Assembly (NCBI GenBank): GCA_003157055.1
Contig: PMIG01000205.1
Location: 1 to 9,767 of the forward strand
Length of the DNA stretch: 9,767 nucleotides
From: Bacteroidales bacterium
Lineage (GTDB): Bacteria > Bacteroidota > Bacteroidia > Bacteroidales > VadinHA17
Direction: 5' to 3'
The notes under the pieces are model-generated. The model ran no database searches. It saw only the letters and a list, made by a program, of their open reading frames with translations, and was not told the DNA's origin. Position numbers and translations under genes: made by a program. Below, one piece after another: positions 1-9,767 of this stretch; within the stretch, counting starts at the first letter, position 1, and every line of letters starts with the position of its first letter.

Positions 1-2
1 TA

Positions 3-128
3 AAGAAAATCTCCTTCCAGGAACTTAATCGTAAAGGTCTTGAGAACATTGGCCCTACAATAAAGCTGATGGCTGAAGCTGAGAATCTTGAAGGACATGC
101 CAAGGCAGTCACGATAAGATTAAAGTAA
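3..128 (+). CDS. hisD: Histidinol dehydrogenase, C-terminal fragment
   Basis: Only the last 41 codons are present; the gene begins before the window. The translation ends in AEAENLEGHAKAVTIRLK, which matches the conserved C-terminus of histidinol dehydrogenase. The His in EGHA corresponds to the family's zinc-ligand His (His419 in E. coli HisD). The enzyme oxidises L-histidinol to L-histidine in two NAD-dependent steps, the last reactions of the pathway. Its place directly before hisC is the usual order of bacterial his operons. The reading frame was set by the stop at 126-128. The identification relies on a short tail, but the tail is characteristic and the neighbours agree. Confidence 0.9.
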   Translation, partial: KKISFQELNRKGLENIGPTIKLMAEAENLEGHAKAVTIRLK

Positions 129-163
129 GCTTAAGGATAAAAATGAAAATTTTGAATATAACA

Positions 164-239
164 TACCCCCTTTCCTGTTTCCCCAAAGGGGGAAAGGCAA
201 CTAAACCTTCCCCCGTGGGGGAAGGCAAGGATGGGGGTC
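164..239. repeat. GC-rich palindromic intergenic repeat between hisD and hisC
   Basis: Two adjacent hairpins lie inside outer inverted ends. The second hairpin is a perfect palindrome: CCTTCCCC (206-213) pairs with GGGGAAGG (218-225) around a CGTG loop. The first is TTTCCCC (178-184) pairing with GGGGAAA (189-195), with an alternative pairing of CCTTTCC (169-175) to GGAAAGG (191-197). The outer ends are ACCCCC (165-170) and GGGGGT (233-238). No T-tract follows, so it does not look like an intrinsic terminator. The layout resembles the small dispersed palindromic (REP or MITE-like) repeats of bacterial genomes; that class assignment is inference. It is the only sizeable gap inside the his operon and could influence mRNA processing or hisC translation. 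Confidence 0.65.
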
Positions 240-254
240 TTAAGAATACTTAAT

Positions 255-1286
255 ATGCTAAAACTAGATCAGCTTGTCCGTCCCAATGTAAAGCGTCTTA
301 CTCCGTATTCATGCGCCAGGGATGATTTTAAAGGCAAAGAGGGAGTTTTCCTGGATGCCAACGAGAATCCGTATGGCTGCCTCAACAGGTATCCTGATCC
401 TTACCAGTCTGAGCTTAAATCGGCAATAAGCAAAATGAAGGGGATCGAGGTCGATAAAATATTTCTCGGTAATGGCAGCGATGAGATAATAGACCTTTGT
501 TTCAGAATATTCTGCACTCCGGGTGTTGACAAGGCTCTGACCTTCACTCCCACTTACGGCATGTACCAGGTTTCGGCTGCAGTCAATGATGTCGACCTGA
601 TCATGGTGGCGCTCGATGAGGAATTCAATATAAGATTCGGCGATTTTCAGCCCTGGTCCGACGATAAGAACCTCAAATTAATCATTGTCTGCTCACCAAA
701 TAACCCTACAGGCAACATTCAGAAAAGGTCGGTTCTCGATAAGCTTATAACCGGCTTCAGAGGAATCGTCCTGCTCGATGAAGCCTATAATGATTTCACC
801 GGGGAACCTTCATTTTCAGAAAATCTGGATAAATATCCAAACCTGATTGTAATGCAGACCTTTAGCAAAGCATGGGCTATGGCATCAGTAAGGGTTGGAA
901 TGGCTTTTGCTTCACCTTCCATCATCCAGTACTTCAATAAAATGAAGCCCCCATACAATATAAGCACTATTAACCAAAAGAGCATCCTGAAGAAACTGAC
1001 CAGCCAGATTGCAGTCAGGAACAGGATAAATACAATTATAGCTGAAAGGGATAGAATCTCTGTAGAACTGAAAAAGATACCTGTCATCCTTGACGTTTTT
1101 AAGTCAGATGCAAATTTCATTCTTGTCAGGACAGACAATGCTGATGATATTTATAATTATCTTGTTGGCTGTGAAATAATTGTCAGAAACCGGAACAGTA
1201 TTATTAAAAATTGTCTCAGGATTACCATTGGAACAAGAAGTGAGAATAACAGAATGCTTAATGCATTAAAAAGTATCAGACTATGA
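255..1286 (+). CDS. hisC: Histidinol-phosphate aminotransferase
   Basis: PLP-dependent class I/II aminotransferase that converts imidazole-acetol phosphate plus glutamate to histidinol phosphate, in the cytoplasm. From the start at 255 it has 343 residues, slightly short of the usual 350-360. Visible landmarks: LDANENPYG near the N-terminus; NGSDE (73-77); SPNNPTG (147-153); the cofactor Asp in DEAY (D175, with Y178); the PLP-binding Lys K205 in FSKAW; RVGMAFA just after it; and LRITIG near the C-terminus. An ATG at 231 is in frame but lies inside the palindromic repeat and would add eight unconserved residues. The start at 255 gives [11 protein letters not shown], which fits the family N-terminus. 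No clear Shine-Dalgarno site precedes 255. The stop overlaps the hisB start as ATGA (1283-1286). Confidence 0.95.
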
Positions 1287-2371
1287 AGAAAGTGCTTTTT
1301 ATAGACAGGGATGGAACTATACTGGAAGAACCGGAAGACGAGCAGGTAGACTCGCTTGAGAAATTCAGGTTCATACCCGGGGCCATAACCGGACTGGTCA
1401 GGATTGCAACCGAAACTGATTTCGAGCTCGTAATGGTTACTAATCAGGATGGTCTCGGAACGTCATCATTTCCCGAAGAAACATTCTGGCCGTCTCACAA
1501 TAAAATGATAAGCATACTTGAGGGAGAAGGAGTCCATTTTTCTGAAATATTCATCGACAGGAGCGTACCCGAAGATAATGCCCCGACAAGAAAACCGGGC
1601 ACAGCAATGCTGGTCAGGTATCTTGCAAAAGGCATCGATCTTGAAAACTCATATGTAATCGGAGACAGGGTCACAGATGTTGAATTTGCAAAAAACCTGG
1701 GCTGCAATGCCATTTATTTCAACTCTCAAAAATCAGAAGGTGCGGTTTTATCTTCCGACAACTGGCACGACATATACATGTTTCTGAAATCAAAGCCGAG
1801 AATCGCGTCAGTTGAGAGGAAGACAAAAGAGACTGATATAAGGCTTGAACTTAATATTGACGGTACCGGGAAAAGCAATATCAGCACAGGAATTGAATTC
1901 TTCGATCATATGCTTGACCAGCTGGCCCGTCATGGCAGCTTCGACCTCATGATAAAAGCTTCAGGTGACAAAGGTGTTGATGGCCACCATATCATTGAGG
2001 ATCTGGCAATATGCCTGGGCGAAGCATTTCTGAAAGCAGCCGGAAGCAAGAAGGGAACAGAACGCTATAGCTTTGTCCTGCCGATGGATGACTGCCTGGC
2101 ACAGGTTGCCGTCGATATGGGAGGAAGGCCGTGGCTTGTCTGGAAGGCAGACTTTTCGTATCAGAAAATCGGTGAAATGCCGACTGAAATGTTTTACCAC
2201 TTTTTCAAATCGTTTAGCGACAATGCAAAATGCAATCTGAACATCTCTGCTGAAGGCAGCAATGAGCATCACAAGATCGAAGCTATTTTTAAGGCATTTG
2301 CCAGGGCATTGAATAATGCCCTGAAACAGACGGATAATTACTCACTTCCGTCAACAAAAGGAAAACTATGA
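1283..2371 (+). CDS. hisB: Bifunctional histidinol-phosphatase / imidazoleglycerol-phosphate dehydratase
   Basis: A two-domain enzyme like E. coli HisB (about 355 residues; here 362). Residues 1 to about 165 form a HAD-type histidinol phosphatase with the DxDGT nucleophile motif (D8, D10), VTNQDG, RKPG (K104) and GDRVTD (127-132). Residues from about 174 to 362 form the imidazoleglycerol-phosphate dehydratase, with [13 protein letters not shown], the metal-binding GHHIIED (H235, H236, E239, D240), GGRPWLVW and NEHHKIE (H329, H330). The protein thus catalyses two non-consecutive steps of histidine synthesis, on either side of HisC. In the HAD domain the four Zn ligands of the E. coli enzyme (Cys, His, Cys, Cys) align with D92, S94, A100 and T102, so the zinc loop is missing. 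It overlaps hisC and hisH by 4 bp each. Confidence 0.96.
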
Positions 2372-2946
2372 TAGCAATAATAAAATATAACGCAGGCAAT
2401 ATCAGGTCTGTTCAGAATGCCGTCACCAGGCTGGGTTATCAATCAGTTATCACTGACGACTGGGAAGAGATACTTAAAGCCGATAAAGTGATTTTACCAG
2501 GCGTCGGAGAAGCCGGTTCGGCCATGAAATACCTAAGGGAGAAAGAGCTTGATAAACTTATCGTTTCACTTAAACAACCTGTCCTGGGAATCTGCCTCGG
2601 GCTTCAGCTGATGTGCAGGTATTCTGAGGAGGGCGATACACAATGCATGAAGATATTTGATTCTGATGTAAGCCTGTTCCCAAGGGTTGATAAGGTTCCC
2701 CATATGGGCTGGAACAACTTCTTTTCCCTGAAAGGAGAACTCTTCAATGGAGTTTCAGCAAGGGACAATGTGTACTATGTTCACAGTTATTACCCCGAGA
2801 TATCCTCTTGTACAATTGCAGTTTGTGATTACATCCTGCCCTTCAGTGCAGGTATGAAAAAGGATAACTTTTATGCAACTCAGTTTCACCCTGAGAAATC
2901 AGCATTGGTCGGTGAACAGATACTTAAAAACTTCCTGGAACTATGA
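2368..2946 (+). CDS. hisH: Imidazole glycerol phosphate synthase, glutaminase subunit
   Basis: A class I glutamine amidotransferase subunit of 192 residues (E. coli HisH has 196). It hydrolyses glutamine and passes ammonia to HisF in the IGP synthase heterodimer. The oxyanion-region motif LPGVGEAG, the nucleophile elbow GICLGLQL with Cys76, and the His-Glu pair in FHPEKS (H174, E176) complete the catalytic triad. It starts inside the hisB stop (ATGA, 2368-2371) with an AAAAGGA ribosome-binding sequence just upstream, and ends in the hisA start. It is separated from hisF by hisA, as in the enterobacterial operon order. Confidence 0.96.
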
Positions 2947-3656
2947 GGATAATTGCCGCAATCGATATCCTTGGCGGAAAGTGTGTCAGGCTGATGCATG
3001 GAGATTACTCGAAGAAGACGATCTATAATGAGGATCCGCTGGAAGTAGCCAAGGAGATGGACGACAATGGAATAAGATATCTTCACCTTGTCGACCTCGA
3101 TGGGGCAAAAAACAAAATGATAGTTCATTTCAGGATACTGGAAAAAATCGCTTCGCAGACCAGCCTTGAAATTGACTTTGGTGGCGGAATCAGGTCGGAT
3201 AATGACTTGAGAATAGCTTTCAGTTCCGGAGCTAAGCAGGTAACTGCGGGAAGCATCGTTCTCTCCTCCCCTTCCCTTGTTCTCGACTGGCTATTAGAGT
3301 ATGGGAATGAAAAAATTATCCTTGGCGCCGATTCAAAGGACAGAAAGATCGTGATCAATGGCTGGCAACAGGAATCTGACTCAGATGTAATTTCTTTTAT
3401 CTCAGAGTATTGCTCAAAAGGAATAAAGTATGCAATATGTACTGATGTCGAAAAGGATGGTTTATTAAAAGGCCCTTCAGCTGATCTTTACAGGGAAATA
3501 TTAAAATCTGTAAAAGTCGATCTTATTGCAAGCGGAGGCATTTCATCTATGGATGACATTATTAAAATAAAAGAGGCGGGATGCGAGGGAGCTATAATTG
3601 GAAAGGCTATTTATGAAGGTAAAATTAAACTAAAGGAGCTCAGGGATCTATGCTGA
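2943..3656 (+). CDS. hisA: ProFAR isomerase (phosphoribosylformimino-AICAR-phosphate isomerase)
   Basis: A TIM-barrel isomerase of 237 residues that performs the Amadori rearrangement of ProFAR to PRFAR, the substrate of HisF/HisH. The catalytic Asp D8 lies in [13 protein letters not shown]. The second catalytic Asp is D130 in LGADSKD, and T167 in CTDVEKDG matches the conserved Thr of strand 5. Phosphate-binding glycines are seen in FGGGIR and IASGGISS, with [11 protein letters not shown] near the C-terminus. The barrel has the half-barrel repeat shared with HisF. It overlaps hisH by 4 bp and hisF by 7 bp (3650-3656). Confidence 0.96.
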
Positions 3657-4405
3657 AAAGAAGAATTATTCCATGTCTCGATATAAGGAACGGACGTACT
3701 GTCAAAGGTGTCAACTTTGTCGGATTAAAAGATGCCGGAGATCCGGTGGAACTTGCAAAGCTGTATGCGTCAAGAGGTGCAGATGAACTTGTCTTTCTGG
3801 ATATAACCGCAACAATTGAAAACCGACATACACTTATCAGTCTGGTTGAAAGAATTGCTGCTGAAATAAATATACCATTCACTGTCGGTGGTGGCATAAA
3901 CAGTCTGGAAGATGTAGGTCACCTGCTCAAGGCAGGAGCCGACAAGATAACAATAAACTCTGCTGCAGTAAGAAGACCTGAGCTTATAACAGAAATTGCC
4001 GGCGAGTTTGGCAGCCAGTGCGTCGTGGTGGCTATCGATACTGATTTAATTAATAATGACTGGGTAGTAGTTGTAGATGGAGGCAGGACACCGGTAAAGC
4101 TCAGGACGATCGACTGGGCAATAAAGGTCGAGAAACTCGGCGCAGGAGAGATACTGCTTACATCGATGAAACACGACGGCACAAAAAAGGGGTTCTCGCT
4201 CGAAATAACTGCAGAGGTGAGCCGTCATGTAAATATTCCGGTTATTGCTTCCGGCGGAGCAGGAAAGAAGGAGCACTTCAGGGATTTATTTTTCAATACA
4301 TCGTGCAGTGCAGCACTGGCAGCAAGCATATTTCACTTCGGTGAAGTAGATATAAAAGAGCTTAAGGAGTATTTATTTAATGAACAAACAGCAGTCAGAT
4401 TATGA
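3650..4405 (+). CDS. hisF: Imidazole glycerol phosphate synthase, cyclase subunit
   Basis: A 251-residue TIM-barrel cyclase that joins ammonia from HisH to PRFAR, giving imidazoleglycerol phosphate and AICAR. The general acid/base residues are present: D11 in PCLDI and D130 in VAIDTD, the same positions as in the well-studied Thermotoga enzyme. Other landmarks are [21 protein letters not shown] and VIASGGAG. The start lies inside hisA, with AAGGAG at 3633-3638, a visible Shine-Dalgarno site 11 nt upstream. The hisF stop overlaps the hisIE start by 4 bp. Confidence 0.97.
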
Positions 4406-4992
4406 ATCAACCCGATTTTACTAAAGGAAATGGCCTTGTACCCGCTATAATACAGGATTTTACAACAATGCAGGTGCTCATGCTGGGCTTCATGAATGAG
4501 GAGGCTCTTGAAAAAACGCTCAGGGAAGGGAAAGTGACCTTTTTCAGCCGGAGCAAAAAGAGACTCTGGACAAAAGGTGAAACATCAGGCAACTATCTGT
4601 TTGTTAAAGAAATAATAACCGATTGTGATAACGATACTCTTCTTATAAAAGTAAAACCCTCAGGACCGGTCTGCCATACAGGGTCGATCTCATGTTTTAA
4701 TGAAGATCAATCAAAGGGCTTTCTCTACAGGCTCGAACAGATCGTCAGTCAGCGGATTGAAGAAAATATTGAAGATTCTTATACTAATAAGATCTATAAG
4801 CAGGGTATCAACAGGATCGCCCAGAAAGTAGGAGAAGAGGCTGTCGAACTCATTATCGAAGCAAAAGACAATAATATGACTCTTTTTAAAAATGAGGCTG
4901 CCGACATGCTATACCACTTACTGATTCTTCTTAAAGCCAAGGGGGTAACCCTCTCAGAAATAGAGTCCATCTTGAAAAATCGGCATAAATAA
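4402..4992 (+). CDS. hisIE: Bifunctional phosphoribosyl-AMP cyclohydrolase / phosphoribosyl-ATP pyrophosphatase
   Basis: A fusion of 196 residues that performs steps two and three of the pathway, turning PR-ATP into ProFAR. The N-terminal HisI part (to about residue 105) has [18 protein letters not shown], the acidic metal motif DCDND (74-78) and CHTG. Its three cysteines C75, C91 and C98 have the 16 and 7 residue spacing of the HisI zinc ligands. The C-terminal HisE part carries [30 protein letters not shown] and [13 protein letters not shown], the helical MazG-like pyrophosphatase signature. It is the last his gene; no hairpin with a T-tract follows it before the next promoter. Confidence 0.96.
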
Positions 4993-5033
4993 GACTTTTC
5001 TCTATATATTATCTAGATTTATTGCCTTAATAG

Positions 5034-5062
5034 TTGTTATTTTAAAAATTGCATTACTTTTG
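5034..5062 (+). promoter_or_regulatory. Predicted Bacteroidetes-type promoter of the Phe/Tyr operon
   Basis: TACTTTTG at 5055-5062 is an exact match to the Bacteroidetes -7 consensus TAnnTTTG. TTG at 5034-5036 lies 18 nt upstream, within the spacing described for the -33 element of this phylum. Transcription would begin around 5066-5070, roughly 10-15 nt before the leader peptide ATG at 5081. The site lies 60-odd bases after the his operon, in an AT-rich gap. The start point is inferred from the motif only. Confidence 0.6.
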
Positions 5063-5080
5063 TAAGCCAACAAGATAAGA

Positions 5081-5143
5081 ATGAATAAAGCATACAACCT
5101 GATCGCCGCTTATTTTTACTTCTATTTTTATTTTAAGAAGTAA
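5081..5143 (+). CDS. Tyr/Phe-rich attenuator leader peptide
   Basis: A 20-codon ORF reading MNKAYNLIAA, then four Tyr-Phe pairs, then Lys-Lys and TAA. Five of the codons are Tyr and four are Phe. Residues 11-18 (codons 5111-5134) are an unbroken alternating aromatic run using both TAT/TAC and TTT/TTC. It sits just after a Bacteroidetes-type promoter, is preceded by a purine-rich AAGATAAGA, and lies 40 nt before an intrinsic terminator. It heads an operon whose enzymes make Phe and Tyr. This is the composition and position of classical leader peptides such as E. coli PheL, where ribosome stalling at scarce-amino-acid codons prevents termination. The peptide itself is unlikely to have a function. 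Expression has not been shown. Confidence 0.85.
   Translation: MNKAYNLIAAYFYFYFYFKK
5116..5143 (+). repeat. Inverted repeat within the leader peptide coding run
   Basis: TTACTTCT (5116-5123) is a perfect reverse complement of AGAAGTAA (5136-5143), with a 12-nt AT-rich loop. The arms cover Phe-Tyr-Phe-Tyr codons and the final Lys codons plus the stop codon. In RNA it could form an 8-bp hairpin and may act as a polymerase pause signal, the role of the first hairpin in enteric attenuators. A translating ribosome would melt it. Chance is a possible explanation in such AT-rich DNA. Confidence 0.45.
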
Positions 5144-5145
5144 CA

Positions 5146-5192
5146 GGGGATTATTGTATACGCTTAAATGAAATATAAGATGCAAGGTCCCC
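5146..5192 (+). promoter_or_regulatory. Predicted antiterminator pairing
   Basis: GGGGAUU (5146-5152), three nt after the leader stop codon, can pair with GGUCCCC (5186-5192), the 5' arm of the terminator. The duplex has four G-C pairs, one A-U and two G-U. It is completed before the terminator's 3' arm (5199-5207) is transcribed. A ribosome held at the aromatic codons (5111-5134) would leave GGGGAUU free and favour antitermination. A ribosome that reaches the stop codon at 5141 would cover it and let the terminator fold. The pairing is seen in the sequence; the mechanism is inferred. Confidence 0.65.
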
Positions 5193-5213
5193 GGAAAAGG
5201 GGACTTTTTTTTT
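5184..5213 (+). terminator. Rho-independent terminator (attenuator) before pheA
   Basis: AAGGUCCCC (5184-5192) pairs with GGGGACUUU (5199-5207) as a 9-bp stem with one G-U pair and a GGAAAA loop, followed by an uninterrupted run of nine T (5205-5213). This is a textbook intrinsic terminator. It lies between a promoter and the pheA start codon at 5218, so it would end transcription of the operon prematurely unless prevented. That position makes it an attenuator and not the end of the his operon, although it could also stop his read-through. Confidence 0.85.
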
Positions 5214-5217
5214 AATA

Positions 5218-6057
5218 ATGAATAATATGAGAATCTCAACCCAGGGTGAGCATGGATGTTTTCATGAAGTAGCTGCAAGACAGTACTTCAGAAACGAGGA
5301 TATTACAATCGTCCCATGCACTACCTTTGACATGACATTGATGGCCGTGAAGGAAAACCAGGCTGATTTTGCGATAATGGCAATTGAAAATGCAAGGTCG
5401 GGAAGCATCCTTTATAATTACACCCTTATCAGGGAATCAGGAATGAAGATCCTTGGTGAACATAACCTCCGGGTCGTTCAAAACCTTATGGCTCTCCCCG
5501 GTCAGCAAGTTGCATCAATCAGGGAAATAAGATCACACCCGATTGCACTTTCACAGTGCATGACCTACCTGAATCATCTGCGTGGAGTTACTCTGATCGA
5601 AAGTGACGATACTGCCGGAAGTGCTAAATTCATCAAAGAAAATAACCTTAAGAATGTCGGTGCAATTGCGCCCGCAATTGCTGCTGAATTATATGGCCTT
5701 GAGATATTGGCCCACGGGATAGAAACGTATAAGAAAAACTACACAAGGTTTCTTGTACTCGGCGATGAGAAGCATGTAAACAGCGACGGGAATAAAGTCT
5801 CAATTTGTTTTTCAACCGGCCATCAACCGGGTTCGCTCGCTGCGGTTCTCGTAAGGCTTGCTGAGCTTGAGATTAATCTTTCGAAGATACAGTCAGTGCC
5901 AAGGCTGAACGGCGACTGGGAATATATGTTCTATCTGGACATTGAGCTTAAGTCTGATCATGACATGGGACTGGTTAAGAACACACTTGAAAATTATACA
6001 AGGGATCTCGAGGTCCTCGGAATATATAATAAAGGAGAGGAATTGTATGAAAGTTAA
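5218..6057 (+). CDS. pheA: Prephenate dehydratase with ACT domain
   Basis: A monofunctional prephenate dehydratase of 279 residues that decarboxylates and dehydrates prephenate to phenylpyruvate, the committed step to Phe. The periplasmic-binding-like catalytic part has QGEHGCFHEVAA, ADFAIMAIENARSGSI, SHPIALSQC, DTAGSAKF and the catalytic NYTRF (T176, R177, F178). An ACT regulatory domain runs from about 193 to 270, with GSLAAVL and KIQSVPRLNGDWEY. The family ESRP effector motif reads QSVP here (225-228). There is no chorismate mutase domain; that activity lies with the DAHP synthase gene downstream. A second in-frame ATG at 5227 (MRISTQGEHG) fits the family N-terminus as well or better. The 5218 ATG lies 4 nt after the terminator T-run. 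Confidence 0.95.
   Translation: MNNMRISTQGEHGCFHEVAARQYFRNEDITIVPCTTFDMTLMAVKENQADFAIMAIENARSGSILYNYTLIRESGMKILGEHNLRVVQNLMALPGQQVASIREIRSHPIALSQCMTYLNHLRGVTLIESDDTAGSAKFIKENNLKNVGAIAPAIAAELYGLEILAHGIETYKKNYTRFLVLGDEKHVNSDGNKVSICFSTGHQPGSLAAVLVRLAELEINLSKIQSVPRLNGDWEYMFYLDIELKSDHDMGLVKNTLENYTRDLEVLGIYNKGEELYES
6032..6037 (+). promoter_or_regulatory. Shine-Dalgarno site that sets the aminotransferase start
   Basis: AAGGAG, 9 nt before the ATG at 6047, is one of the few strong ribosome-binding sites in this window. It lies inside the 3' end of pheA. It supports 6047 over the in-frame ATG at 5942, which would add 35 unrelated residues and overlap pheA by over 100 bp. Confidence 0.7.
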
Positions 6058-7231
6058 ACCGGCAGAGAGAACCAATAGTGTCCAGGAATACTATTTCTCG
6101 CAAAAGCTGAAGCAGATAGACCAGATGCGCAATTCCGGAGCCGATGTCATAAACCTCGGTATCGGCAGTCCTGACCAGCCGCCGTCGGAGAACACTATTG
6201 AAAGTCTGTACAGGGAGGCTTTGAAACCAACTGCGCATGGGTACCAAAGCTATACTGGGATACCAGCCCTTCGTAATGCCTTTGCTAAATGGTACAAAAC
6301 TTATTTCAACGTAATCCTTGACCCGGAAAGCGAGATATTGCCCCTTATGGGAAGCAAGGAGGGAATAATGCATATCAGCATGGCATTCGTGAATCCGGGA
6401 GATGATGTGCTTGTTCCAAATCCCGGCTACCCGACATATTCATCCATCACAAAGCTGGTTGGCGGGAACATCAGATATTATGACCTGGATGAAAAAAACG
6501 GCTGGTATCCTGATATTCATAAGATTGAAAAGAGTAACCTGAAAAATGTAAAAATGATGTGGATAAACTATCCGCACATGCCATCAGGAACGAAGGGGTC
6601 ATTCAGGCTATTTGAACAGCTTACGGCATTCGCCTTAAAGCATGGAATACTTTTATGCAACGATAATCCTTACAGCTTCATCCTCAATAAGGAATATATA
6701 AGCCTCCTCGCAGTTGACGGCTCCAGGGAGATTGCCATCGAGCTTAATTCCCTGAGTAAATCGCATAACATGGCAGGATGGAGAGTAGGAATGGCAGCAG
6801 GCCATAAGGAATATATAAGCTCCATCCTCAAAGTCAAAAGCAATATGGATTCTGGCATGTTCCGGGCTATGCAGGCGGCAGCTGCCGAGGCACTCGGCAA
6901 CCCTCCTTCATGGTACGACAAGGTCAACAGCCATTACCAGTCAAGACGCAGGATTGTCGAGGATATAATGGATGTGCTGAATTGCAGGTATGATAAAAAC
7001 CAGGTCGGCCTCTTTGTCTGGGGCCGTATCCCTGACACTATAAAGAATTGTGAAGATTTTGTTGAGGATGTCCTGACCAAGGTAAACGTGTTCATCACAC
7101 CAGGATTTATTTTCGGATCAAACGGAGAAAGGTACATCCGGATATCTCTATGCGCTGATGAAGCAACCCTTATTGAATCAGGGAAAAGAATTAAAAAGTA
7201 TCTTTCAGAAAAACTAGCAACTAGCAACTAG
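6047..7231 (+). CDS. Class I PLP-dependent aminotransferase, probable aromatic aminotransferase
   Basis: A fold-type I aminotransferase of 394 residues. Landmarks: INLGIGSPDQPP, HGYQSYTG, GSKEGI, VPNPGYPTY, the cofactor motif NDNPY (D206, Y209), the PLP-binding Lys K238 in SLSKSHNMAGWRVG, and a carboxylate-binding Arg R365 in YIRIS. The usual NPTG loop reads NYPHMPSG, with Met178 where most aspartate-aminotransferase relatives have Asn. It starts inside pheA (11-bp overlap) and ends 4 bp before tyrA. Lying between the two genes that make phenylpyruvate and 4-hydroxyphenylpyruvate, it most likely performs the last transamination to Phe and Tyr. An LL-diaminopimelate or alanine aminotransferase role cannot be excluded from sequence alone, and arogenate formation is another possibility. 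Confidence 0.85.
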   Translation: MKVKPAERTNSVQEYYFSQKLKQIDQMRNSGADVINLGIGSPDQPPSENTIESLYREALKPTAHGYQSYTGIPALRNAFAKWYKTYFNVILDPESEILPLMGSKEGIMHISMAFVNPGDDVLVPNPGYPTYSSITKLVGGNIRYYDLDEKNGWYPDIHKIEKSNLKNVKMMWINYPHMPSGTKGSFRLFEQLTAFALKHGILLCNDNPYSFILNKEYISLLAVDGSREIAIELNSLSKSHNMAGWRVGMAAGHKEYISSILKVKSNMDSGMFRAMQAAAAEALGNPPSWYDKVNSHYQSRRRIVEDIMDVLNCRYDKNQVGLFVWGRIPDTIKNCEDFVEDVLTKVNVFITPGFIFGSNGERYIRISLCADEATLIESGKRIKKYLSEKLATSN

Positions 7232-7235
7232 CAAC
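7212..7235 (+). repeat. 7-bp tandem repeat across the aminotransferase stop codon
   Basis: The unit AACTAGC occurs three times in a row (7212-7232) followed by a partial AAC, ending directly before the tyrA ATG at 7236. It encodes the last residues LATSN and supplies the TAG stop at 7229-7231. It also occupies the position where a tyrA ribosome-binding site would be expected; none is visible. Because the unit length is not a multiple of three, a change in copy number alters the relation of the two reading frames. Confidence 0.85.
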
Positions 7236-8081
7236 ATGACTACAACTGTAATTGGAATAGGTTTGATAGGAGGATCGCTTGCGCTGGACATTCGAAAGCG
7301 TCACTTCGCCGATAAGATAATCGGTGTCGATACAAATCTGCAGCACCGTAATATAGCGAAGCTATGCGGGATCATCGATGAAGACGATACTCTTGAAAAT
7401 GCAATTGAAAGAAGTGATCTGATTTTACTCTGTACTCCGGTAAATACCAATATGTCTATGCTTCCTTCCATCCTCGACTTGATAAAGGGCACTTCGAAGG
7501 TTGTGGTCGACATGGGATCGACAAAAGCAGGAATTGCGAAGGCCTCTAAATCTCACCCCGGACGTGGCAGGTACGTTGCTGCCCATCCCATGGCAGGAAC
7601 AGAGTATTCTGGTCCCCTGGCCGCCATAGGCAAGCTTTTTGATTATAAGACAGTCATAATCTGTGATCCGGAGCTCAGCGATCCTGATGCAAAAAACCTC
7701 GTGGAAAACATGTTTAAAATTCTTAACATGCACCTGGTTTATATGAATTCTGATATGCATGATGTGCATGTTGCATACATATCCCATATTTCTCATATAA
7801 CATCCTTCTCGCTGGCTCTGAGCGTATTGGAGAAGGAAAAGGAGGAAGAGAATATTCTGGCACTTGCTGGAGGCGGCTTCGAAAGTACAGTGAGGCTCGC
7901 AAAGAGCAACGGGGATACATGGGCTCCTATCTTTACGGAAAACTCTGAATATATTATCGAAGTGATCGATACTTATATTGAAAAGATGAATACTTTTAGA
8001 AAGTTGATTTCGGAGAAAGATACTTCTGGGCTGAAATCACTGATGGAAGAAGCGAACAAGATCAGGAAAATATTAAATTAA
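7236..8081 (+). CDS. tyrA: Prephenate dehydrogenase (TyrA family)
   Basis: A 281-residue dehydrogenase that oxidatively decarboxylates prephenate to 4-hydroxyphenylpyruvate, the Tyr branch. The N-terminal Rossmann fold shows VIGIGLIGGS (glycines 7, 9, 12, 13). An acidic D32 at the end of the second strand suggests NAD over NADP. The core continues with LLCTPV, VVVDMGSTK and AAHPMAGTEYSG, where H117 is the conserved catalytic His. The helical dimerisation domain has SHISHITSFSLA, LAGGGFESTVRLAKSNGDTWAPIF and ENSEYI. It ends without an ACT domain or fused chorismate mutase, so no feedback domain is apparent. Use of arogenate in place of prephenate cannot be ruled out. No Shine-Dalgarno site is visible; translation may be coupled to the aminotransferase, whose stop is 4 nt upstream. 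Confidence 0.93.
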   Translation: MTTTVIGIGLIGGSLALDIRKRHFADKIIGVDTNLQHRNIAKLCGIIDEDDTLENAIERSDLILLCTPVNTNMSMLPSILDLIKGTSKVVVDMGSTKAGIAKASKSHPGRGRYVAAHPMAGTEYSGPLAAIGKLFDYKTVIICDPELSDPDAKNLVENMFKILNMHLVYMNSDMHDVHVAYISHISHITSFSLALSVLEKEKEEENILALAGGGFESTVRLAKSNGDTWAPIFTENSEYIIEVIDTYIEKMNTFRKLISEKDTSGLKSLMEEANKIRKILN

Positions 8082-8096
8082 ATATCTTAAATATTT

Positions 8097-9218
8097 ATGG
8101 TTTTAGAGTTTGATAACTCCCTTCTAAGGGATTGGGACGTGTACAAAGAGAGGCCTTTCCTGATTTCAGGGCCTTGCAGTGCGGAGACGGAAGATCAGGT
8201 GCTGGAGACAGCCAGGGAGCTGGCCGCGCTAAACCGGATAAGCATTTTCCGTGCCGGCATCTGGAAACCGAGAACACGGCCAAATACTTTCGAAGGGGTA
8301 GGCATTCCGGGACTGAAATGGCTCAGAACAGTGAAAAAAGAGACCGGCCTTCCGGTTGCTACCGAAGTTGCGAATGAGAAGCATGTTTATGAAGCTTTGA
8401 AATATGGGATCGACATGCTGTGGATCGGTGCCAGGACATCTGTTAATCCTTTCACGGTTCAGGAGATAGCTGATGCGCTTAAAGGAGTGGATGTAATGGT
8501 ATTCGTCAAGAATCCCATTAACCCTGATATTGAATTATGGATGGGTGCAATTGAAAGAGTTGCGAAGGCAGGCATAAAGAGGCTGGGCGCCATTCACCGC
8601 GGGTTCTCCTCCTACGAGAAAACAACATACCGGAACCAACCGAACTGGCAGATACCTATCGAGCTGCGACGCAGGATACCGGATCTTCCTATTATCTGTG
8701 ACCCGAGCCACATAGCCGGTTCAAGGGAATACCTCCACGAAATCTCGCAGAAGGCAATGGACCTGAGCTTTGACGGTTTAATGATCGAATCGCATATCAA
8801 TCCCGACAAAGCCCTGAGTGATGCTTCACAGCAGCTTACACCCAACGATCTGAAAGAGCTGTTGAGCAGGCTTATTCTTCGTAATGCCTCGACCACCGAC
8901 CCTAAGTTACTTGATGTTCTCGGTGAATTGCGTCAGCAAATTGATGTTTATGATGACCATCTAATTGACCTTATGGAACAGAGAATGAAAGTATCGGAAA
9001 CCATCGGGCTCTATAAAAAAGAAAATAATATTACTATCTTACAGACCGTTCGCTGGGACGAGGTAGTGAAGAAAGCGATGAAGAAAGGCCTGGCAAAAGG
9101 TCTGAGTGCCGAGCTTATTGATAGTGTTTTCAAGGCTCTGCACCAGGAATCTATTAACTGCCAGATGAAAGTGATGAATAAGGGAATCGAGAATCATAAC
9201 CATACTGACAACAAATAA
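8097..9218 (+). CDS. Bifunctional DAHP synthase / chorismate mutase (AroQ class, C-terminal)
   Basis: A fusion of 373 residues. Residues 1 to about 260 are a type I-beta DAHP synthase that condenses PEP and erythrose 4-phosphate. They show GPCSAE (metal ligand C27), RAGIWKPRTRP (52-62), WIGART, FVKNP, IHRGFSS (H167), CDPSH (201-205) and LMIESHINPDKALSDASQQL (E231). Residues from about 270 to 360 are an AroQ chorismate mutase: R279, R296, K307, R319 and Q356 have exactly the spacing of E. coli R11, R28, K39, R51 and Q88. E. coli D48 and E52 are replaced by Q316 and W320. In studied Bacteroidetes enzymes of this layout the two domains regulate each other, with prephenate as inhibitor; that is family knowledge, not shown here. 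The gene follows tyrA after 15 nt and precedes aroA by 11 nt. Confidence 0.95.
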   Translation: MVLEFDNSLLRDWDVYKERPFLISGPCSAETEDQVLETARELAALNRISIFRAGIWKPRTRPNTFEGVGIPGLKWLRTVKKETGLPVATEVANEKHVYEALKYGIDMLWIGARTSVNPFTVQEIADALKGVDVMVFVKNPINPDIELWMGAIERVAKAGIKRLGAIHRGFSSYEKTTYRNQPNWQIPIELRRRIPDLPIICDPSHIAGSREYLHEISQKAMDLSFDGLMIESHINPDKALSDASQQLTPNDLKELLSRLILRNASTTDPKLLDVLGELRQQIDVYDDHLIDLMEQRMKVSETIGLYKKENNITILQTVRWDEVVKKAMKKGLAKGLSAELIDSVFKALHQESINCQMKVMNKGIENHNHTDNK

Positions 9219-9229
9219 AACATCAGCCA

Positions 9230-9767
9230 ATGGAAAGAATAATAGTACCTTCAAAGTTAAAGGGTGAAGTTAAGGCTCCGGCATCAAAAAGTATGACTCA
9301 GCGGGCTATTGCTGCCGCATTGCTGGCCCATGGCGAAAGTACTATTATTAACCCTTCGTATTGCGATGACTCGCTGGCTGCAATGAGTATCGCTGTAGGG
9401 CTTGGCGCAAAAGTGGAGCCGGACACCAATAAGATGAAGATCACCGGTTCATCAGTGCTGAAGGAGAAAAAGCTTAACTGTGGTGAATCAGGCCTTGCGA
9501 TACGCATGTTCTCACCGGTGGCTGCCCTCTATAAAACTGAACTGACAATTACGGGAACCGGATCGCTTAAGAAAAGGCCTATGTCAATGATCGAGGAGGC
9601 CCTGAAACAATTCGGCGTTAAATGTGAAACAGAAAAGGGATTCCTTCCGCTCACAATAAAAGGTCCGCTTAAAGGAGGTATCTGTGAAATTGACGGCTCC
9701 ACAGGATCGCAGATTCTGACAGGCCTCCTGATGGCTCTCCCTGTTGCAATGAAAGATTCAATTGTAA
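9230..9767 (+). CDS. aroA: 3-phosphoshikimate 1-carboxyvinyltransferase (EPSP synthase), N-terminal part
   Basis: The first 179 codons of EPSP synthase; the gene runs past the window edge with no stop seen. It transfers the enolpyruvyl group of PEP to shikimate 3-phosphate, the sixth step of the shikimate pathway. The substrate-binding PASKSMTQRA holds K20, S21 and R25, equivalent to E. coli K22, S23 and R27. The loop usually written NAGTAMR reads NCGESGLAIRM here (N83 to M93, R92). KKRPM (R116, P117) and STGSQ (157-161) bind phosphate and shikimate 3-phosphate in the family. The ATG at 9230 gives a typical N-terminus. It is the fifth gene of the aromatic operon after the leader. Confidence 0.94.
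   Translation, partial: MERIIVPSKLKGEVKAPASKSMTQRAIAAALLAHGESTIINPSYCDDSLAAMSIAVGLGAKVEPDTNKMKITGSSVLKEKKLNCGESGLAIRMFSPVAALYKTELTITGTGSLKKRPMSMIEEALKQFGVKCETEKGFLPLTIKGPLKGGICEIDGSTGSQILTGLLMALPVAMKDSIV

Follow-up and report, generated by a model that had tools for sequence, protein, structure and literature searches.

A 20-codon open reading frame (ORF) ahead of pheA in a Bacteroidales genome very probably serves as the leader peptide gene of a ribosome-mediated attenuator of transcription, which would sense both phenylalanine and tyrosine. The ORF occupies positions 5081–5143 of the window, by which we mean the whole stretch of DNA that was analysed (9,767 nt; contig PMIG01000205.1, positions 1–9,767, forward strand, of assembly GCA_003157055.1, Bacteroidales bacterium, VadinHA17). 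Judged by sequence, it appears to belong to a real attenuator family of the class Bacteroidia.

The elements of the locus lie where a preliminary description of this DNA had placed them, as seen from the sequence itself, a terminator scan and Pfam. The leader ORF (MNKAYNLIAAYFYFYFYFKK; + strand, ATG to TAA) carries four Tyr-Phe pairs as codons 11–18 (5111–5134) and is followed on the same strand by a predicted intrinsic terminator (AAGGUCCCC-GGAAAA-GGGGACUUU and a T run, 5184–5213, −14.5 kcal/mol). This is the only terminator-like site between 4500 and 6000 (5184–5207, then the T run); since shuffled versions of that stretch average 1.3 such sites, the site is by itself no proof. Downstream, also on the + strand, are pheA, specifying prephenate dehydratase (5218–6057; PDT, PF00800), a class I/II aminotransferase gene (6047–7231; Aminotran_1_2, PF00155), tyrA, specifying prephenate dehydrogenase (7236–8081; PDH_N/PDH_C, PF02153 and PF20463), and aroGQ, specifying a DAHP synthase fused to chorismate mutase (8097–9218; DAHP_synth_1 and CM_2, PF00793 and PF01817). 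An ORF at 9230–9767 that looks by eye like aroA (EPSP synthase) is still open at the end of the window, so the operon probably continues. Immediately upstream of the leader region, positions 231–4992 hold closely spaced genes of a his operon, among which an aminotransferase gene and hisIE (4402–4992) were assigned from Pfam domains and hisB-like, hisH, hisA and hisF genes were named by eye; a leader for this operon, if there is one, would fall outside the window.

A promoter had been proposed ahead of the leader, and the one predicted here is of a Bacteroidetes type. It consists of a TTG at 5034–5036 and TACTTTTG at 5055–5062 (+ strand), the latter a match to TAnnTTTG, which we take to be the Bacteroidetes −7 promoter motif. 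In each of the 38 close relatives TAnnTTTG stands 25–30 nt 5′ of the ATG of the leader, and in a wider set it occurs within 60 nt of the leader at 34 of 59 loci, compared with 2 in a control stretch farther upstream. From 4785 to the leader ORF, the promoter scan gave no + strand match of the sigma-70 type; the single upstream match of that type on this strand (9 of 12), at 4757–4785, lies within hisIE.

Conservation across Bacteroidales had been put forward as the check on the leader, and in close relatives the leader was largely kept. PheA searches yielded a close set of 59 loci, 49 of which have a leader of the same kind about 130–165 nt upstream of pheA; these were merged to 38 distinct regions. 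Left out were four loci with a diverged leader (L051, L056, L057 and L059, the last from Prevotella denticola) and six with no leader (L047–L050, L052 and L058), all six with a rearranged pheA. In the latter, pheA lies directly behind an ORF of 359–366 aa, without the aminotransferase gene, tyrA and aroGQ; in the three that were tested (L047, L050 and L058) this ORF matches PF00180, consistent with leuB (isopropylmalate-dehydrogenase-like). These six loci, in which pheA has moved and the leader is absent, serve as a natural negative control.

What is kept in the peptide is a mixture of Phe and Tyr, and the strict Tyr-Phe alternation emphasized in the preliminary description was rejected as a conserved trait. 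The run YFYFYFYF occurs in only 5 of the 38 distinct close leaders and YFYFYF in 17, and F and Y swap by position among close relatives, while all 38 leaders have at least two Phe and at least two Tyr codons. Codon totals over the 38 are TTT 134, TTC 75, TAT 114, TAC 66, TTA 0 and TTG 1; the near absence of TTA and TTG is the expectation if Phe and Tyr identity is kept.

Three helices predicted in the leader RNA would be mutually exclusive. Segment 1 (GCAUACAA, 5090–5097, + strand as for the others) is the partner of segment 2 (GGGGAU..UUGUAU..CUUA, 5146–5166) in a 1:2 helix seen in relatives; segment 2 is also the 5′ strand of a putative antiterminator, whose 3′ strand is segment 3 (UAAG, AUGCAA, GUCCCC, 5176–5192); and segment 3 overlaps the 5′ arm of the terminator (3:4). 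Helices 1:2 and 2:3 covary, in agreement with the earlier proposal of a leader-peptide attenuator. Over the 38 close leaders the nine pairs of helix 1:2 are formed in 92.4% of cells, and both this fraction and the covariation score exceed all 500 shuffles. Changes on both sides are found in five of the nine pairs, a count as high in 5 of 500 shuffles; one of the five measures, the number of further pair types, is no better than shuffles (123 of 500). Because the core of the helix is an alternating GUAUAC, slid registers still pair, with 81.6% of cells paired when the partner is slid by −2 and 58.5%, with an equal number of both-side changes, at +2. On both paired cells and covariation score the true register ranks first; in this alignment two leaders, L007 and L009, are shifted by 3 nt. 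RNAalifold recovered six pairs of 1:2 and six of 3:4 from the A1 alignment; since the terminator arms of two sub-types do not line up there, helix 2:3 was tested by duplex permutation.

In these permutations each leader's own segments formed better duplexes than segments exchanged among leaders. In the 38 close leaders own partners gave −9.77 and permuted partners −7.31 for 1:2, and −10.94 and −10.23, respectively, for 2:3. The signal was stronger among 61 order and class leaders with a terminator (−13.88 versus −10.70 for 1:2; −14.46 versus −9.10 for 2:3). In every case 0 of 2000 permutations was as good, relatives being treated as independent and kinship ignored. These 61 leaders come from 70 order and class candidates, the other nine being without a terminator by the criteria used. 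In the order and class leaders a median of 14 nt (IQR 11–16) separates the end of the aromatic run from the antiterminator; some 14 nt is about the distance from the ribosomal A site to the front edge of the ribosome.

We folded the window RNA stepwise, with the ribosome front edge set 15 nt beyond the first A-site base. When the RNA stops at segment 3 (5192), the antiterminator is predicted for A-site positions at codons 11, 12, 14 and 16 (−13.4 kcal/mol), is weaker (−10.7) at codon 18 and is not formed at the stop (−0.8). In RNA reaching the end of the T run, the minimum is the antiterminator for A-site positions at codons 14 and 16 and the terminator for those at codons 11, 12 and 18 and at the stop. 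The antiterminator and the terminator (−14.5) are near in energy, so that the order of events would probably matter. Without a ribosome, the minimum for full-length RNA is a 1:2-type hairpin plus the terminator (−34.9; z −3.4). If such ribosome-free RNA goes no farther than segment 3, however, its predicted fold is the antiterminator and not 1:2, so the folding does not bear out default termination. The isolated six-pair 1:2 helix of the window is itself imperfect, with a C5091/A5160 mismatch, and weak (+1.2 kcal/mol with its long loop). At one close relative, L026, the usual leader stop is missing and the leader extends nine codons through segment 2 (MNIVYNYFISFYYFYFYFKKRKRDFCIQIN); attenuation may or may not survive there with the longer leader.

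In the mechanism that we propose, scarcity of charged tRNA-Phe or of charged tRNA-Tyr would lead to transcription into pheA-aminotransferase-tyrA-aroGQ. If a ribosome lingered on the Tyr and Phe codons, segment 2 would be available to segment 3, and this pairing would block the terminator. With both amino acids plentiful, segment 2 would be hidden under a ribosome at the stop codon and the terminator would form, and when there is no translation 1:2 would form and transcription would terminate by default. Because Tyr and Phe codons are interspersed, a shortage of either amino acid should relieve termination, and from this OR-type input we infer that the leader acts as an OR gate for Phe and Tyr. 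Three features that mark ribosome-mediated attenuators are present: a short predicted ORF rich in end-product codons stands ahead of the operon, an intrinsic terminator lies between the leader and the first gene, and the predicted antiterminator excludes the terminator, with covariation (by permutations that ignore kinship).

The conservation of the leader extended to a wider sample. Searches with PF00800 covered 247 phylum genomes (215 matched), 119 order genomes (52 matched) and 324 order genomes (151 matched), draws that overlap. The full set comprises 149 pheA loci. The order contributes 128, two of them from the same genus, and the rest of the class 21. L103 and L030 come from a single genome, and L114, with 9 nt of upstream DNA, was dropped. 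In a first set of 70 order and class loci, the leader criterion was a short ORF with an ATG start and at least six of eight residues F, Y or W within 350 nt upstream of pheA. Such an aromatic ORF was found at 51 of the 70 loci, as against 0 of 70 in antisense; ten rounds of dinucleotide shuffling gave a mean of 0.6 per 70 and never more than 2. The aromatic ORF before pheA is thus not due to chance. In the full set a leader is present at 129 of the 149 loci, and of the 20 leaderless loci 10 have a lone pheA. Outside the class an aromatic leader was found at 0 of 29 loci, an uneven sample of best-scoring PheA matches.

That the leader reports on both amino acids, as had been suggested, is borne out by codon content, which tracks what the operon makes. 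An aminotransferase gene, tyrA or aroGQ follows pheA at 129 of the 149 loci, pheA is alone at 19, and the context of one (leaderless) is unknown. Of the shared operons, 118 have a mixed leader, 2 have a leader with at most one Tyr in the core and 9 have none by the ATG threshold; for the lone pheA genes the leader is Phe-only at 6, has at most one Tyr at 2, is mixed at 1 (L181) and was not found at 10. When only loci with a leader are counted, the core therefore has no more than one Tyr at 8 of 9 lone pheA genes versus 2 of 120 others (Fisher p = 2.6e-10, with relatives counted as independent). Five of the nine shared operons entered as having no leader (L119, L129, L203, L226 and L238) were missed by the ATG scan and kept in that count; their aromatic runs have a GTG start codon, lie at a greater distance upstream or run into the called start of pheA. 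At L131 and L142–L144 (f34), also shared operons, no leader was found. Some leaders, including those of L146, L151, L158, L163, L164 and L175, have a single Trp codon in or beside the Phe/Tyr run, and a Trp input is possible.

The eight Phe-only or nearly Phe-only leaders of lone pheA genes come from families f19, f72, f82 and f136, at four separate places in the drawn PheA tree. On this tree the label shared by these eight requires 3 changes among lone-pheA rows only, and the label of at most one Tyr requires 7 over all 129 leader rows, the two shared-operon rows and L181 included. Phylogenetic pairs numbered only five; in most pairings four were as expected, none against and one without a difference (sign test p = 0.125). 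The link between codon content and operon content is thus strong when loci are counted but only modest when independent events are.

Genomes in which pheA and tyrA are split bear on the same question from the tyrA side. Of 70 genomes, 69 yielded a TyrA (PF02153), and the tyrA region was read in nine genomes with a lone pheA. In six of these nine a separate tyrA operon has its own Tyr-containing leader, which has a Tyr majority in four (G053, G309, G373 and G382). The leaders of pheA and tyrA are MTRFFTHFFFFFTQQ and MNNTFGYYAFYYYFFYNN in G053 and MITINNSFFFFFFRSDPEKGL and MAPVHTYYAWSFFFFYFQNKRGHAV in G319; G309 has MRRNSFRFFFFFAFFFCNGRNGVSYLY at pheA versus MIKNISVFAYFYYYFYFSKK ahead of aminotransferase-aroGQ-tyrA, and G373 has MYFDFVFGFLFCFPKS at pheA versus two tyrA leaders, MTTYTFSYFYYWFRTP and MVNFEFYYGFYYYLD. 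G349 (MKFTAVNGFYFWFYYFGGFTGAER) and G382 (MATQLFVYSYYFYFSWTS) have Tyr-codon leaders ahead of the tyrA operon, and none was found at their lone pheA. The other three (G071, G269 and G154) have no leader at the lone pheA and no strong aromatic run before tyrA. In three further genomes (G322, G061 and G158) tyrA is elsewhere and pheA still heads aminotransferase/aroGQ or aroGQ; here the leaders stay mixed, and no strong aromatic run precedes tyrA in the stretch read.

Such patterns are difficult to reconcile with an attenuator that senses Phe only, in which Tyr codons would be the product of neutral drift (TTY to TAY, one base) and Tyr would be no input. Drift would fit the interchange of F and Y by position in relatives, as well as L181, whose lone pheA has a mixed leader. 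We nonetheless consider it improbable, given the near loss of Tyr from 8 of 9 lone-pheA leaders but only 2 of 120 others, the origin of those eight low-Tyr leaders in four families at separate places in the tree, and the Tyr-containing leaders before tyrA in six of nine split genomes. Dual sensing of Phe and Tyr could also take place without codon-level starvation, if the nascent peptide arrested the ribosome in a TnaC-like manner with free Phe or Tyr as the ligand, and the basic C-terminus that follows the aromatic run in many members would suit such an arrest. However, the peptide outside the run varies widely between families, as do the length and order of the run and its distance to the stop, and it is codon content and RNA pairing that are conserved; we regard peptide arrest as very improbable. 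It is hardly credible that the terminator, which does also lie downstream of hisIE, merely ends the upstream his operon while the ORF has no role of its own or does no more than raise pheA translation, because a conserved promoter motif separates hisIE from the leader ORF, a leader precedes pheA at 129 of 149 order and class loci, and the RNA past the run pairs with the terminator arm across leaders.

Codon-level attenuation may also be applied twice in series. A strong leader followed by a terminator is present, in at least one copy, at 107 of the 129 loci with a leader, and at 16 of the 129, by automatic terminator criteria used without a shuffled control, there are two leaders, each with its own terminator (L093, L104, L109, L112, L124, L183, L195, L197, L199, L212, L218, L244, L247, L248, L252 and L255, all upstream of pheA). 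The diverged Saprospiraceae loci L056 and L057 also have two leaders in series before pheA.

Taken as a whole, the data lead us to favour, with some reserve, a class-wide and modular codon-logic sensor, the codons of which would be rewritten to match the downstream end products and about one-eighth of which would be tandem, multiplying the response to shortage. On this reading, a lone pheA would have a Phe-only leader and a tyrA operon a Tyr-rich one, with Phe plus Tyr where the two are joined. If this is true, the leader would be a natural, repeatedly re-tuned OR gate in the place that TyrR holds in enteric bacteria, and it offers a concrete, testable mechanism by which a large bacterial class could regulate how much Phe and Tyr it makes. 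As leader codons tend to split where pheA and tyrA split, the leader can be read as a record of the amino acids served, and leaders could aid the annotation of operons of uncertain function. Genomes with split pheA and tyrA constitute a natural experiment, and the tandem copies provide a way to ask how two serial attenuators shape a response.

No Rfam family reached its gathering score in the window, and thus neither a T-box model nor RF01692 did. Phe_leader (RF01859) matched at 33.9 bits over the whole model, below its gathering score of 55; the match starts at 5093, inside the ORF, and many of the model's pairs are broken. RF01859 was above its cut-off in 0 of 119 order genomes, it matched none of 14 relative loci at E 0.05, and among the 25 other sub-threshold order matches listed, only those in G347 and G380 lie just before pheA. 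Scores equal to 33.9 bits mostly lie away from pheA, and we rejected membership in Phe_leader. A Leu_leader match of 33.8 bits (cut-off 50) lies before pheA at L133 (1330–1474). Bacteroid-trp was found in 5 of 60 relatives at E 1e-3, with three over the cut-off, and under stricter filters there was none in the window's own genome; as described in PMC2864571 (Weinberg 2010), Bacteroid-trp (RF01692) is also a predicted cis-regulatory leader in Bacteroidetes, but it is a different family.

The preliminary description had named no leader of this type in Bacteroidetes, a statement that needs softening, for a pheA attenuator or structured element is in print (PMC1173090, PMC9723704). Table 7 of PMC1173090, taken from Merino's database, has a putative attenuator before Bacteroides thetaiotaomicron pheA-hisHb-aroAI-aroQ-tyrA. 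It shares operon type, kind of regulation and phylum with the window and is possibly a relative of the window leader, although that table entry is a listing without leader peptide, codon logic or conservation. Passages of PMC9723704 report a structured, transcribed 5′ element before pheA of Flavobacterium psychrophilum that is conserved in Flavobacteriaceae, and leader-peptide clues with suspected attenuation before flavobacterial amino-acid operons; on Phe/Tyr codon mixing these passages are silent. Small ORFs of B. thetaiotaomicron reminiscent of attenuation leaders are noted in part of PMC7366714. Short ORFs with Phe or Phe plus Tyr codons before aromatic pathway genes, like the window leader in this respect, appear in PMC6429828, where the legend of Fig. 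6b describes uORF candidates containing F and Y ahead of shikimate genes, and in an excerpt of PMC8632094 (uORFC-13-1 before aroF in Acholeplasma, described there with Phe only); further printed precedents are PMC4833913, which cites Lopatovskaya 2010, and PMC1183508. In published papers, supplements, preprints and the majority of subscription titles aside, we found no description of a Phe-plus-Tyr leader in Bacteroidota, and we claim no priority. Attenuators of this kind are known, and attenuation of pheA in Bacteroidota has already been predicted in print; what is new is an apparent Phe/Tyr input that tracks operon content, together with the predicted tandem form.

Among enteric systems, PheL (RF01859) resembles the window leader in being a short leader ahead of pheA, with aromatic regulatory codons and a terminator. 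The enteric peptide is Phe-only, whereas the window leader has Phe and Tyr. One leader serves several end products in enteric ThrL (Thr/Ile) and IlvL (Ile/Val/Leu), and in this the window leader is like them, with other amino acids and in another phylum.
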